From NCBI RefSeq assembly GCF_024347135.1, contig NZ_AP024907.1, positions 3,401,001-3,465,000 of the forward strand: DNA of 64,000 nucleotides. The letters run 5' to 3'. The notes beneath the pieces were generated by a model that was not told the origin of the DNA, did no database searches, and saw only the letters and a program-made list of their open reading frames with translations. The translations under genes were made by a program, and so were the position numbers. The stretch's first letter is position 1; each line of letters starts with the position of its first letter. The stretch is from Vibrio spartinae (lineage in GTDB: Bacteria; Pseudomonadota; Gammaproteobacteria; Enterobacterales; Vibrionaceae). Below are positions 18,091-25,037 of this stretch, piece after piece.

Positions 18091-19602
18091 ATGGAAACAG
18101 GATTTTCTTTAATCAAAAAACCCGGAACAAATATAGAAAATAGAATAGAAACATCTTTTAATTGCAATGTAATACCTATCTCTGATGGAATATTGTGTGT
18201 AGGAAAAAAAGACAAGTACAGCCAGTACAATGAAGAAAATACTATTCATTTGATTGGCGATATACATAATTTAGATTTTATTAATGAACTTATATCAAAC
18301 TTGTGTTCAAATGCGAACAATGCAGAACCTGCTCATATCATCATGATCATGATAAAGCAATTAGGTATTCAATCGTTGTCTTTACTTGAGGGCGATTTCT
18401 GTGTCATTATAGAGAATAAAAACTCAACGTACCAAGTAATTACTAACCCATTTGGAATGAATCCTGTAAGTATTATTTCATCTCACGATAATCATTCATT
18501 ATGGATTACAAACAACCTAAAAGTATTTGCAAGTGTTGAGGGCGATAAAGCTATTCATTTCAAAAACCCGAACTTAGTTTGTGTCGATGGACCAAGACAA
18601 AATAACTATTCTCCGATTCATAATGCGATTAAACTAAAACCTGCCAGTATCAATGAAATATCTTTTGATCGCAAAGGATACTTTTATAATAAAGTTTCAG
18701 ATCTACTTTTTTGTAGCAATCATTGTGAAACAAATTTTGATGAAGATCTACTTCTTCAAATCATTGATAAATACATACAATCACCGATCAGTGATTCGTA
18801 CAACAAGTATAAAAAGGTCGGCATCCCTCTTTCTGGCGGACTTGATTCCAGTCTTGTTACGCTCTTAGCAAGTGAGCAGTTTGACAATATTTATACCTAT
18901 TCAATTGGTACAGAGTCCTTCAATGAATTTCCATATGCAGAAATCGTTTCCGAGTGTCTACATACCCACCATGAAAATAAAATATTAGATGAGAAAGATA
19001 TTATCAATGGTGTCATTGAATCTATTTACTACAATGAAATTTTTGACGGGCTCTCTGCAGAAATTCAATCTGGTTTATTTAATGTCTACAAAATGGCAAA
19101 TAAAAACTCAGAACTGCTATTGACTGGTTATGGTTCAGATTTATTGTTTGGTGGTGTAATTAACCCGAGTAGTCAGCATGATCCAAACCAAGAGTTGAGC
19201 CAATTAGTCTATAGAACACAGTGGACTTCTGAATTCTCAACGCTTGGCCCTCGTGAACTCGGCATTGATATCAGACATCCTTTCTGGACAAGACGGTTAA
19301 TGTCATTGTGTGAAAACATGAATCACAAATTAAAAATCAGAGACAATGAAAATAAATATATTCTCAGAAAATATGTTGATTCATTCAAAAAATTACCCGA
19401 TGAAATCGTTTGGCGAAAAAAAATCGGCATCCATGAGGGATCGGCTGTTAACCAATCGTTTGCCAATACACTCGGTGTGAATGTTAATAATTACTATGAG
19501 AAGAATTTATTTACTTACAAGATGTATCAGTCATTAATATTAGGCCGAATCAATATTCATGATTACAACTTAGATGAAATTAAAAAAATAATTACGGAGT
19601 AA
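18091..19602 (+). CDS. carA: Carbapenam synthetase CarA (beta-lactam-forming, AsnB-like)
   Basis: A 503-aa ATP-dependent ligase that closes the beta-lactam ring of (2S,5S)-carboxymethylproline to give (3S,5S)-carbapenam-3-carboxylate. It has the class B asparagine synthetase layout, but Cys2 is absent (the chain starts METGFS), so the N-terminal domain cannot be a glutaminase. The PPi loop is PLSGGLDSSLV (about 246-256). In TGYGSD a tyrosine (Tyr347) replaces the glutamate of AsnB; with Glu381 and the lysine in WRKKIG (443/444) it matches the Tyr345/Glu380/Lys443 set of Pectobacterium CarA. The stretch from INGVIESIYYNEIFDG to QSGLFNVY is nearly as I recall from that protein, which is also 503 aa. 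Ribosome site AGAGG; the ATG at 18091 starts the operon, 4 bases before carB. Confidence 0.96.
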   Translation: METGFSLIKKPGTNIENRIETSFNCNVIPISDGILCVGKKDKYSQYNEENTIHLIGDIHNLDFINELISNLCSNANNAEPAHIIMIMIKQLGIQSLSLLEGDFCVIIENKNSTYQVITNPFGMNPVSIISSHDNHSLWITNNLKVFASVEGDKAIHFKNPNLVCVDGPRQNNYSPIHNAIKLKPASINEISFDRKGYFYNKVSDLLFCSNHCETNFDEDLLLQIIDKYIQSPISDSYNKYKKVGIPLSGGLDSSLVTLLASEQFDNIYTYSIGTESFNEFPYAEIVSECLHTHHENKILDEKDIINGVIESIYYNEIFDGLSAEIQSGLFNVYKMANKNSELLLTGYGSDLLFGGVINPSSQHDPNQELSQLVYRTQWTSEFSTLGPRELGIDIRHPFWTRRLMSLCENMNHKLKIRDNENKYILRKYVDSFKKLPDEIVWRKKIGIHEGSAVNQSFANTLGVNVNNYYEKNLFTYKMYQSLILGRINIHDYNLDEIKKIITE

Positions 19603-19606
19603 TATC

Positions 19607-20374
19607 ATGACAATTAAAACATCTGATATCAATTCTGTCAGAGTGATTACACTCAATCATAAAAGTATTCATAACCCATTTAGTGAAGCGCTTGAAGATG
19701 CAGTGAAAGCCGCTTTAGTTGAAGCAGATCATGATACCAATGTCAGTGCTATCGTAGTTCATGGTGGTGATCATCGTTCTTTCAGCGCCGGCGGTGACTT
19801 TAATGAAGTCCGCAATCTAAAAGGCGGGGCTGAAGTTGATCGCTGGATAGATAGAGTGATTGACTTGTATCAAACCGTACTCAATGTCAAAAAACCAACG
19901 GTTGCAGCAATCGATGGGTATGCAATTGGGATGGGATTTCAATTCGCCATGATGTTTGATACCCGGATTATATCATCCACCGGTAAATTCATTATGCCTG
20001 AATTAAAACACGGGATTGGTTGTTCTTTGGGCGCTCAAATACTATCACACTGCATTGGCTATAACGCGATGAAGTCTATTGTTTACAGTTGTGATGAGTT
20101 GGATGCAATCGAAGCGACTCAGCTTCACCTCGCTGATGCAATGACACAACCAGAACAACTTTTATCAACCGCGATAAGCGAAGCACAAAAATTGTCGACT
20201 TACCCAACGCCATCTTTCCAATCGACGAAAAAAGTAATGAATCATGGCTACTTTGAGCTTTTGGAAACCGCGAGAAAAGAATCGAAAGAAGTTCACCGAC
20301 TTTCGTTTGGTGCCGGAGATGCACAGAAACATTTTAACCGAGTATTAAAAACAACGTCAGAAATAGGAGTATAA
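19607..20374 (+). CDS. carB: Carboxymethylproline synthase CarB (crotonase family)
   Basis: A 255-aa crotonase-fold enzyme (CarB of Pectobacterium is about 250 aa). It condenses malonyl-CoA, after decarboxylation, with pyrroline-5-carboxylate to give (2S,5S)-carboxymethylproline. Oxyanion-hole residues fit AGGDFNEV (Gly62/63) and DGYAIGMGFQF (Met109). The single acidic residue Glu132 in MPELKHGIG corresponds to Glu131 of CarB, and the second glutamate of true enoyl-CoA hydratases is not needed. Without the neighbours it could be mistaken for an enoyl-CoA hydratase; between carA and carC the CarB assignment is strong. Gap to carC is 5 bases. Confidence 0.95.
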   Translation: MTIKTSDINSVRVITLNHKSIHNPFSEALEDAVKAALVEADHDTNVSAIVVHGGDHRSFSAGGDFNEVRNLKGGAEVDRWIDRVIDLYQTVLNVKKPTVAAIDGYAIGMGFQFAMMFDTRIISSTGKFIMPELKHGIGCSLGAQILSHCIGYNAMKSIVYSCDELDAIEATQLHLADAMTQPEQLLSTAISEAQKLSTYPTPSFQSTKKVMNHGYFELLETARKESKEVHRLSFGAGDAQKHFNRVLKTTSEIGV

Positions 20375-20379
20375 AACCA

Positions 20380-23556: not shown

Positions 23557-23589
23557 ACATCCTACAACGGACACGGTGAGAAATCTATT

Positions 23590-24516
23590 TTGAATCATGC
23601 CTACAAATATTATATTGGCGTACTGATTGCTGTCATCCTATGGGGAAGCAATTTTGTAGTGATAAAAATCGCACTGCAGCAGGTGGATACGTTAGCACTA
23701 CTCTCGATTCGTTTCGTGTTGAGCACCATCATTCTCGGAGGCGTCTGTCTTTTTAGACAGCAAGCAACACCACCACTGTCATTGAGAAACTATGTTTTCC
23801 TTTTTTTCCTGGGGATACTCGGAATCGCGGGGTTTAATCTGGGACTTTTTTACGGACTCAACGACACATCACCTATTCATGCGTCGCTGATTGTATCTCT
23901 TTCTCCTTTGATGACCTTATTTATTGCCAGTCGTTTTAATATAGAGCGAGTTAATCTGTCTCACATTATCGCCCTTTTACTCTGTATGATTGGCGTTGTT
24001 TTAGTGATTGGTTCACCACTGGATGATAGTCAATTTATGATTAAGGGCGATTTGATTATTTTTGCAGGCACACTGTCGTGGAGTGTCTATACCATTTTTT
24101 CAACGAAAATAAAATCTCAACTAGAACCACTTCAGTTAACATTTCTTGTGATGCTCTTTGGTTCAATTTGTATTGTCTTGCTGAGCTCATTTCAGCTGAA
24201 TTTGTTCAGTGTATTGACAGAAATAAACACTCAGACTTGGGGACTCATTCTATATATGGCGATATTCACAACCTGTATTCCTCACATCTTATGGGTTCAC
24301 TCCGTAAGAAAAATCGGGCCAACTGAGTCCTCTTTGTTTTTCAACTTAATTCCAGTCTTCGCCACTATATTTACAATTTTTACCGGTTTCATCCCTGATC
24401 AATACCAAATCATCGGTATTATCATCTCGTTTGCAGGATTAGCGCTCCCGACCCTATACACCTATCTCATCAATCGCTCTCATTTGGTAACCAAAAAAGA
24501 GGCGATCAACAAATGA
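23590..24516 (+). CDS. DMT-superfamily (EamA) transporter embedded in the carbapenem operon
   Basis: A 308-aa membrane protein with about ten hydrophobic helices in two EamA repeats. The first begins YIGVLIAVILWGSNFVVIK (residues 7-25). The second starts near 150 (GDLIIFAGTLSWSVYTIFS). The start is TTG (23590), preceded by GGTGAG at good spacing; the next in-frame Met is about 100 residues later, which supports TTG. Its 3' end overlaps carG (ATGA). EamA proteins export amino acids, metabolites and drugs. Lying between the two resistance genes it is a candidate carbapenem exporter or precursor transporter. I do not recall such a gene at this position in the Pectobacterium operon, where carH has no known function. 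Confidence 0.85.
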   Translation: MNHAYKYYIGVLIAVILWGSNFVVIKIALQQVDTLALLSIRFVLSTIILGGVCLFRQQATPPLSLRNYVFLFFLGILGIAGFNLGLFYGLNDTSPIHASLIVSLSPLMTLFIASRFNIERVNLSHIIALLLCMIGVVLVIGSPLDDSQFMIKGDLIIFAGTLSWSVYTIFSTKIKSQLEPLQLTFLVMLFGSICIVLLSSFQLNLFSVLTEINTQTWGLILYMAIFTTCIPHILWVHSVRKIGPTESSLFFNLIPVFATIFTIFTGFIPDQYQIIGIIISFAGLALPTLYTYLINRSHLVTKKEAINK

Positions 24517-25037
24517 GATATTTATATTTATTCGTCCTGTTATTACACCCTTTTTATGCTTACCCTGCGGCGACCTTTTTCGAACTCAATAGTGGCTTGA
24601 ATCATTTAGACTTAAACTCAGACGGCATTCTTGATGCTGTTTTTTATTCGCGGTTTGATAACAACACATCTCATCCGGACCCGACGCTTTCGGTTTATAT
24701 CAAAAATAACGATGCAACCTACTCGATTGTACCGACACCAGCAGGTGACCGATTTACGCTATTTGGTATTAATGTCTCTGTTTCAAATGTCTTGGTGAGA
24801 AGTTTTGGCTTTATCAAAACGTCAAAGAAGGTCTATCTGATTGTTGCTGTTAAATCCGGGGACTCGCCTCACTTAAAGCAACAGTTCAAATTCAAAATTT
24901 ATCAAATAGAGAAAAACCTAGAGCACCCAGGCATTCCTCTATACGGCTGGACTCAAACATCGGAAAAAGTCAGTCAACATCAATATATGTCAGCAGATGT
25001 CGCAATCCGTGAATGCCCCCAAACATGTTTTGAGTAA
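24513..25037 (+). CDS. carG: CarG-like carbapenem self-resistance protein
   Basis: A 174-aa small exported protein with an N-terminal signal peptide (MRYLYLFVLLLHPFYAYPAA, cleavage near residue 20). The mature part starts with a segment containing LDLNSDGILDAVFYSR (about 32-47), the aspartate-rich pattern I associate with the CarG self-resistance family. Two cysteines near the end (ECPQTC) could form a disulfide in the periplasm. In Pectobacterium, CarF and CarG together protect the producer without hydrolysing the antibiotic as ordinary beta-lactamases do. The assignment rests on size, export signal, the motif and its place as last gene before a terminator. Confidence 0.78.
   Translation: MRYLYLFVLLLHPFYAYPAATFFELNSGLNHLDLNSDGILDAVFYSRFDNNTSHPDPTLSVYIKNNDATYSIVPTPAGDRFTLFGINVSVSNVLVRSFGFIKTSKKVYLIVAVKSGDSPHLKQQFKFKIYQIEKNLEHPGIPLYGWTQTSEKVSQHQYMSADVAIRECPQTCFE

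Follow-up and report, generated by a model that had tools for sequence, protein, structure and literature searches.

The window analysed here, a stretch of 64,000 nucleotides from Vibrio spartinae (contig NZ_AP024907.1, positions 3,401,001 to 3,465,000), carries at 18091-25037 on its plus strand a carbapenem biosynthesis (car) operon made up of carA-B-C-D-E-F, a gene for an EamA-type drug/metabolite transporter (DMT), and carG. An earlier note on this DNA had proposed a complete carbapenem operon in a Vibrio-like genome, and the proposal is borne out: the eight frames are intact, their proteins have Pfam and Protein Data Bank (PDB) matches, and active-site residues are kept. The Vibrio car operon is a genuine variant of an antibiotic operon already known. 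Judging from sequence, we put at roughly 80% the probability that it makes (5R)-1-carbapen-2-em-3-carboxylic acid, likely shielding its producer, with the DMT protein exporting the product or keeping it out of the cell, and we infer that the strain makes a carbapenem. To our knowledge, the described producers of simple carbapenems are a few enterobacteria. The range of bacteria in which these compounds arise would be widened by a Vibrio line that has a transporter of its own and lacks LuxR/LuxI genes. The features of the locus, with protein identities to Pectobacterium carotovorum, are as follows.

17560..18090, plus strand: AT-rich leader, 19% GC
18091..19602, plus strand: carA, predicted carbapenam synthetase, 503 aa (Pfam, PDB; 44%)
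19607..20374, plus strand: carB, predicted carboxymethylproline synthase, 255 aa (Pfam, PDB; 55%)
20380..21213, plus strand: carC, predicted 2-oxoglutarate-dependent carbapenem synthase, 277 aa (Pfam, PDB; 67%)
21214..21258, plus strand: terminator-like hairpin followed by a T-rich stretch, in the carC/carD gap (z -4.9; kept in 4/4 carriers)
21290..22441, plus strand: carD, proline-dehydrogenase-like, 383 aa (Pfam; 44%)
22445..22717, plus strand: carE, 2Fe-2S ferredoxin, 90 aa, cysteines 38, 43, 46 and 76/77 (Pfam; 49%)
22717..23556, plus strand: carF, predicted immunity protein with FGE-sulfatase domain, 279 aa (Pfam, PDB; 37%)
23590..24516, plus strand: EamA/DMT transporter gene, TTG start, 308 aa (Pfam)
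24513..25037, plus strand: carG, predicted carbapenem immunity protein, 174 aa (Pfam, PDB; 31%)
25049..25078, plus strand: intrinsic-terminator-like hairpin and T-run 3' of carG (z -3.6)

The open reading frame (ORF) listing places all eight frames on one strand, with at most 76 bases between neighbours and with short overlaps, carE and carF sharing 1 base and the DMT gene and carG sharing 4. Curated Pfam cut-offs were exceeded for, in turn, CarA_N with Asn_synthase, ECH_1, TauD, Pro_dh, Fer2, FGE-sulfatase, EamA and CarG-like; none of the NCBIfam matches listed reached its curated cut-off (25 of 71 listed for CarB; no match for CarC and CarG). The host is a Vibrio near V. gazogenes and V. ruber, and the operon is not confined to one strain. 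Four genomes carry it in full: that of the window (G000), V. ruber DSM 16370 (G235), Vibrio sp. MEBiC08052 (G255) and V. gazogenes (G161). Across these carriers the pairwise ratio of nonsynonymous to synonymous substitution (dN/dS) is 0.016-0.19, with every operon gene under purifying selection. Because the whole gene order recurs in the three other Vibrio genomes with such low dN/dS, chance is ruled out as the origin of the gene run.

The three core enzymes can be told from their generic relatives. Asparagine synthetases, crotonases and TauD proteins had been named beforehand as the top matches that would speak against Car identities; they were looked for, and the Car proteins score far above them. 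The best solved structure for CarA is 1q15 (E 1.9e-140, 472 bits), the next being a beta-lactam synthetase at 76 bits. CarB matches 2a7k (E 4e-84, 285 bits), followed by a CarB homologue at 169 bits and by generic hydratases from 87 bits down, and CarC matches 1nx4 and 4oj8 at 421 bits (1nx4 E 1.8e-125), with the next structure at 34 bits. Residues Y347, E381 and K444 of CarA align with identical Y345, E380 and K443 of the known CarA, M109 and E132 of CarB with M108 and E131, and H97, D99, H247 and R263 of CarC with H101, D103, H251 and R267; the residues of the known proteins are those that we take to be catalytic in CarA and CarB and to form the 2-His-1-Asp iron site and the 2-oxoglutarate arginine of CarC. 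The divergence from Pectobacterium (CarA 44%, CarC 67%) and the long Vibrio branch in the CarABC protein tree (0.71 changes per column) would suit an operon whose CarA-C make a different beta-lactam, either (3S,5S)-carbapenam only or a carbapenem decorated by genes elsewhere; given that the checked active-site residues of all three enzymes are kept and that the operon holds no tailoring gene, we regard this as very unlikely.

The roles of the Car enzymes are established, and CarA-E account for all the known chemistry by which proline and malonyl-CoA become a simple carbapenem. In the Vibrio operon the CarD/CarE proline-oxidation pair adjoins carA-C and would oxidise proline to pyrroline-5-carboxylate, which CarB would combine with malonyl-CoA to give carboxymethylproline; CarA would then close the beta-lactam ring with ATP, and CarC would bring about epimerisation and desaturation with 2-oxoglutarate and iron. 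No further tailoring gene was found inside the operon in the ORF listing or by Pfam. CarF and CarG would act as immunity proteins, and the DMT protein, by exporting the product or keeping it out of the cell, would be part of the operon's protection half. CarF, whose N-terminus looks by eye like a signal peptide, has 5aoh as its best solved-structure match (E 7e-59, 203 bits; next 41 bits); this entry is deposited under the title 'spore coat protein CotH', and from the sequence match we read it as a CarF. The sole solved-structure match of CarG is 4o7j (E 1.1e-25, 93 bits). Immunity conferred by carF and carG has been shown experimentally in Pectobacterium work, according to passages of PMC6813493.

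Comparison with known systems both supports and qualifies the earlier statement that the gene order is that of simple carbapenem producers. It holds for carA-F and for carG; the DMT gene occurs in the Vibrio operons only, and carH is missing from them. P. carotovorum and Serratia sp. ATCC 39006/Prodigiosinella (carR, carA-H) share with Vibrio the order of carA-F and carG, the domains and the checked active-site residues; the Vibrio operon differs in having the DMT gene between carF and carG, in lacking carH, and in having no LuxR-type gene beside carA and no LuxR/LuxI match genome-wide. Its proteins are 31-67% identical to those of P. carotovorum. The cpm-type cluster of Photorhabdus and Xenorhabdus likewise has carA-G homologues in identical order, but has a carH homologue after carG (truncated in Xenorhabdus) and no transporter in the operon, and lies on a separate tree branch. 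When the eight window proteins were compared by tblastn with 14 enterobacterial loci, carA-G were found in each and the DMT gene in none. Eight of these 14 loci were read ORF by ORF, and no transporter was seen between carA and carG/carH in any of them, which makes the Vibrio DMT protein a candidate exporter for a carbapenem system; some enterobacterial loci have transporter-like genes near, yet outside, the car operon.

All eight of the loci so read contain a frame of 121-195 aa with CLGE..WP and GDxCYG motifs, which we take to be CarH. It follows carG in seven of the eight; in Dickeya carG-carH precede carF, in Providencia CarH precedes carF, and the Xenorhabdus copy is truncated. A profile built from seven CarH proteins matched none of six Vibrio genomes, with both controls (Pectobacterium and Photorhabdus) matched. 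As CarA-E cover the known chemistry, we treat carH as the mark of an enterobacterial sub-type, and the Vibrio operon thus as a variant rather than a plain member. Photorhabdus G347 has a second CarH-like copy away from its car operon (C1:1950317-1950959), in two pieces, one of them with stops.

More distant are the clusters of Caballeronia and Paraburkholderia acidicola ATCC 31363, which share CarA, CarB and CarC homologues with Vibrio (P. acidicola also CarF and an EamA gene) and differ in gene order and in having no carD, carE or carG match by tblastn in their loci. The P. acidicola EamA protein, encoded between carB- and carF-like genes, is 24% identical to the Vibrio DMT protein; this kind of exporter may have been recruited there independently. 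The P. acidicola locus (L025:10001-18463) combines CarC, CarA, CarB and CarF homologues and EamA with an AA_kinase (Pfam) and an ArgJ-like protein (from a look at the sequence); precursor supply may here stand in for CarD/CarE.

Two further Vibrio genomes, G162 and G232, hold remnants of the operon. A search for empty sites with the ROK protein in 41 genomes returned only its own gene and paralogues; the site in G162 was located with the upstream flank as a DNA query against 227 genomes of the genus. In G162, whose uxuB and uxaC are 97% identical to those of V. gazogenes, the sequence jumps from the equivalent of window position 17304 to a 155-base scrap of the carF end and the DMT start, after which it continues with the end of the DMT gene and a carG that is intact (174 aa, 90%); a DMT match recorded at this locus (L066), at 26%, was set aside as a paralogue. 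When 329 Vibrionaceae genomes were searched for CarG-like proteins, six matched: G162, G232 and the four carriers. The deletion in G232 has removed carA-C and almost the whole of carD but left carE, carF, the DMT gene and carG intact (81-88%); the leader remnant stops before the promoter-like site described below. The flank tree groups G162 with V. gazogenes (100/100) and G232 with V. ruber and MEBiC08052 (99.6/99). As both the breakpoints and the flank-tree placements differ, the sequences of G162 and G232 look like the outcome of separate losses, and since scraps of the deleted genes remain, these are losses rather than stages of stepwise assembly. The retained genes have low dN/dS (0.147 for carG between V. 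gazogenes and G162; 0.12-0.20 for four genes between G232 and V. ruber), which is not proof of present use because the time before the loss is included.

These remnants suggest producers turning into resistant non-producers, as known for carF/carG in Pectobacterium. Passages of PMC6813493 describe strains of Pectobacterium wasabiae, P. parmentieri and P. c. brasiliense in which carF/carG are left as immunity-only remnants. The likeness to G232 and G162 is that biosynthesis genes are gone and immunity genes kept; the difference is that G232 also keeps the transporter and carE, and that G162 keeps only carG. Both genomes would be cases of CarG-type resistance persisting without antibiotic genes alongside, and the two immunity-keeping relatives make the cycle of producer, resistant non-producer and sensitive strain testable with natural strains.

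The DMT protein has two EamA repeats by Pfam and many hydrophobic segments by simple hydropathy. A search of 5.8 billion proteins returned four close clusters of relatives, all from Vibrio (89-100%). Its stop codon overlaps the carG start by 4 bases in all five genomes that hold both genes (the four carriers and G232), and its dN/dS between species is 0.05-0.13. Because it is kept with carF and carG in G232 and overlaps carG, a role in export or protection is likely, and stays a prediction from sequence.

Control of the operon would differ from that in the enterobacteria. An 843-base intergenic region precedes carA, the last 531 bases of which are the 19% GC leader. This contains a promoter-like TTGACA (18012-18017) and TAGATT (18034-18039) separated by a 16-base spacer, a prediction made by eye and identical in 4/4 carriers. 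Upstream of it lies a TGTGATC half-site (17978-17984), also found by eye and kept in 4/4 carriers; considered as the left half of a CRP-type site it has a poor and variable right half, and no CRP site is claimed. LuxR (PF03472) and LuxI (PF00765) matched none of five Vibrio genomes (the four carriers and G162), LuxM-, LuxS- and CqsA-type systems not having been searched; in the controls, both matched in Pectobacterium and Prodigiosinella, and LuxR alone in Photorhabdus. A LuxR-type gene stands directly before carA in Pectobacterium and Prodigiosinella, where the Vibrio window has the intergenic region. Expression would be set by the AT-rich leader with its conserved promoter-like site and not by a LuxR/LuxI pair, because no such pair was found in the genome. 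The carC/carD hairpin was matched in stability by 0/200 shuffled sequences and shows by eye a two-sided T-A to C-G change in V. gazogenes; it may be a leaky stop that tunes the protection half apart from carABC. For the hairpin after carG, 1/200 shuffles were as stable.

Several points weigh against the proposed product and its protection by the DMT protein. One concerns carH, which passages of PMC6813493 count among the genes required for synthesis; without it, and if no other gene takes its place, the operon might yield little product or none. Another is the AT-rich leader, which with no CarR-type regulator could mean a complete operon that is silent in ordinary culture, through xenogeneic silencing of the AT-rich block and lack of an activator. 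The GC contents of leader and car genes (19% and 37%, against 51% for the left flank), the absence of LuxR/LuxI matches in 4/4 carriers and the absence of carH all favour such silence, yet purifying selection on every gene in the four carriers and the conserved promoter-like site argue for at least occasional use of the operon, and the Photorhabdus genome (L010) that carries the operon also has no LuxI match; we think a silent operon unlikely, if less so than a different beta-lactam.

The remaining objections touch the transporter. DMT families export many substrates, and EamA is a large one, so that the gene may encode an exporter of amino acids or metabolites that has nothing to do with the carbapenem and came to lie between carF and carG. 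Outside Vibrio the closest relative found is 31% identical, and the best NCBIfam match, to a model for carboxylate/amino acid/amine transporters, falls far short of its cut-off. In G162 carG was retained and the transporter lost, so the two do not always stay together; the biosynthetic carE is also retained in G232, where the retained block may be simply what the deletion spared. Nor is a nearby transporter strictly a Vibrio trait: in Prodigiosinella, by a look at the sequence, an MFS-like gene (L012:14370-15656) comes right after carH in the same orientation. Against an unrelated exporter stand the position of the gene, kept in 5/5 Vibrio genomes with intact carF and carG, the overlap with carG, the low dN/dS, the restriction of close relatives to the four Vibrio clusters and the EamA gene at a comparable place in P. 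acidicola. An unrelated exporter is thus a doubtful explanation in our view, and we retain export or exclusion of the carbapenem as the likely role of the DMT protein.

Within the clade the operon has not simply been inherited with its flanks. V. ruber and MEBiC08052 are 96-100% identical per 500 bases over the left flank (98% overall) and 76-94% over the leader and car genes; V. ruber and G232 are 80-89% identical over the left flank and 98-99% to the right of carG. In the carE-F-DMT-G tree G232 joins V. ruber (100/100), in conflict with the flank tree. These identity jumps among the three genomes led us to reject simple vertical descent of the operon; from the sequences it seems that recombination in the flanks has swapped operon alleles among these vibrios. 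The V. ruber locus (L063, 7220-16701), set beside L064 and L076, points to such swapping at the car locus.

The wider distribution points to an old line. A CarC search of 329 Vibrionaceae genomes matched nine, four with true CarC (96-100%); the other five Vibrio matches (E 3e-5 to 5e-4), which are 22-33% identical along some or most of their length, were counted as other TauD proteins. CarA_N, searched for in 369 genomes of the class, gave seven weak matches besides the own gene (E 2e-5 to 3e-4; 591-647 aa), which we judge by their length to be ordinary asparagine-synthase-type proteins. CarC relatives were found at 21 loci on GTDB contigs: two in Vibrio, 14 in Enterobacterales (66-71%), one in Providencia rustigianii and four in Burkholderiaceae. 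The list of Pectobacterium, Serratia and Photorhabdus given before is therefore too short, the enterobacterial relatives including Dickeya, Xenorhabdus, Providencia and Citrobacter. The 20.8 kb locus of P. rustigianii (L026) gave no match to any car gene besides its CarC relative, which is 56% identical. A protein search with CarC returned 72 relatives; at 50-59% identity these include P0042, labelled as an Oscillatoriales metagenome-assembled genome, and P0046, P0057 and P0065 from metagenome sources. Carriage on a plasmid was considered and set aside, the best plasmid CarC match being Pantoea sp. At-9b at 66% and the other 11 of 12 records at most 28%; the window sits on a 4.0 Mb contig of a two-contig genome of 5.19 Mb.

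The phylogeny with enterobacterial sequences that the earlier note had called for was run on CarABC proteins (21 rows; L015 and L026 left out), and the Vibrio operon came out as a separate branch. The four Vibrio rows form one long branch (0.71 changes per column) outside 13 Enterobacterales (96/96), and the four Burkholderiaceae rows lie at the opposite end; with a midpoint root, and with long branches and odd composition flagged, only this separateness is firm. Import from a sampled enterobacterium is accordingly unsupported. In the sampled data the Vibrio operon appears to be an old, separate line. As to whether a marine vibrio producer would be new or little described, no published Vibrio car operon was found in the portions of the open-licence literature searched (including passages of PMC6813493, PMC11778176, PMC4557003 and PMC12041421); the V. 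ruber CarC is already named (5R)-carbapenem-3-carboxylate synthase by NCBI. The earlier interpretation was thus right in kind and wrong in detail. A broader account, offered tentatively and at somewhat under even odds, would have the gazogenes-clade vibrios holding a separate, old line of the operon, in which a dedicated DMT exporter, present in place of carH, is a third means of self-protection and expression needs no LuxR/LuxI pair, at a locus that is a hot spot for allele swapping between species and where producers, by shedding the biosynthetic genes while retaining the protective ones, become resistant non-producers.

To the left of the operon is a uronate operon (DctM, GH31, a uronate reductase of the mannitol-dehydrogenase family, UxaC, PfkB and KDPG aldolase), and on the other side a sugar locus (ROK, BadF-type, GFO/IDH and GH28); no transposase or integrase was found among the 10 flanking genes scanned. 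At 28965-32031 of the window a GH28 (pectinase-family) gene lies beside frames that look by sequence like sugar-ABC-type permeases, near the uronate operon. The GH28, permease and uronate genes suggest use of plant polymers around the antibiotic locus. Beside the orphan carG of G162 (L066:11819-15813) Pfam finds an ATP-grasp/L-amino-acid-ligase-type protein, an MFS exporter and a LysR regulator. Together these may form a small locus for a dipeptide-type product that moved into the decayed car site. In G232 the remnant is directly followed on its right (L076:10206-12474) by a haem-oxygenase-like iron-containing redox enzyme and another EamA transporter.

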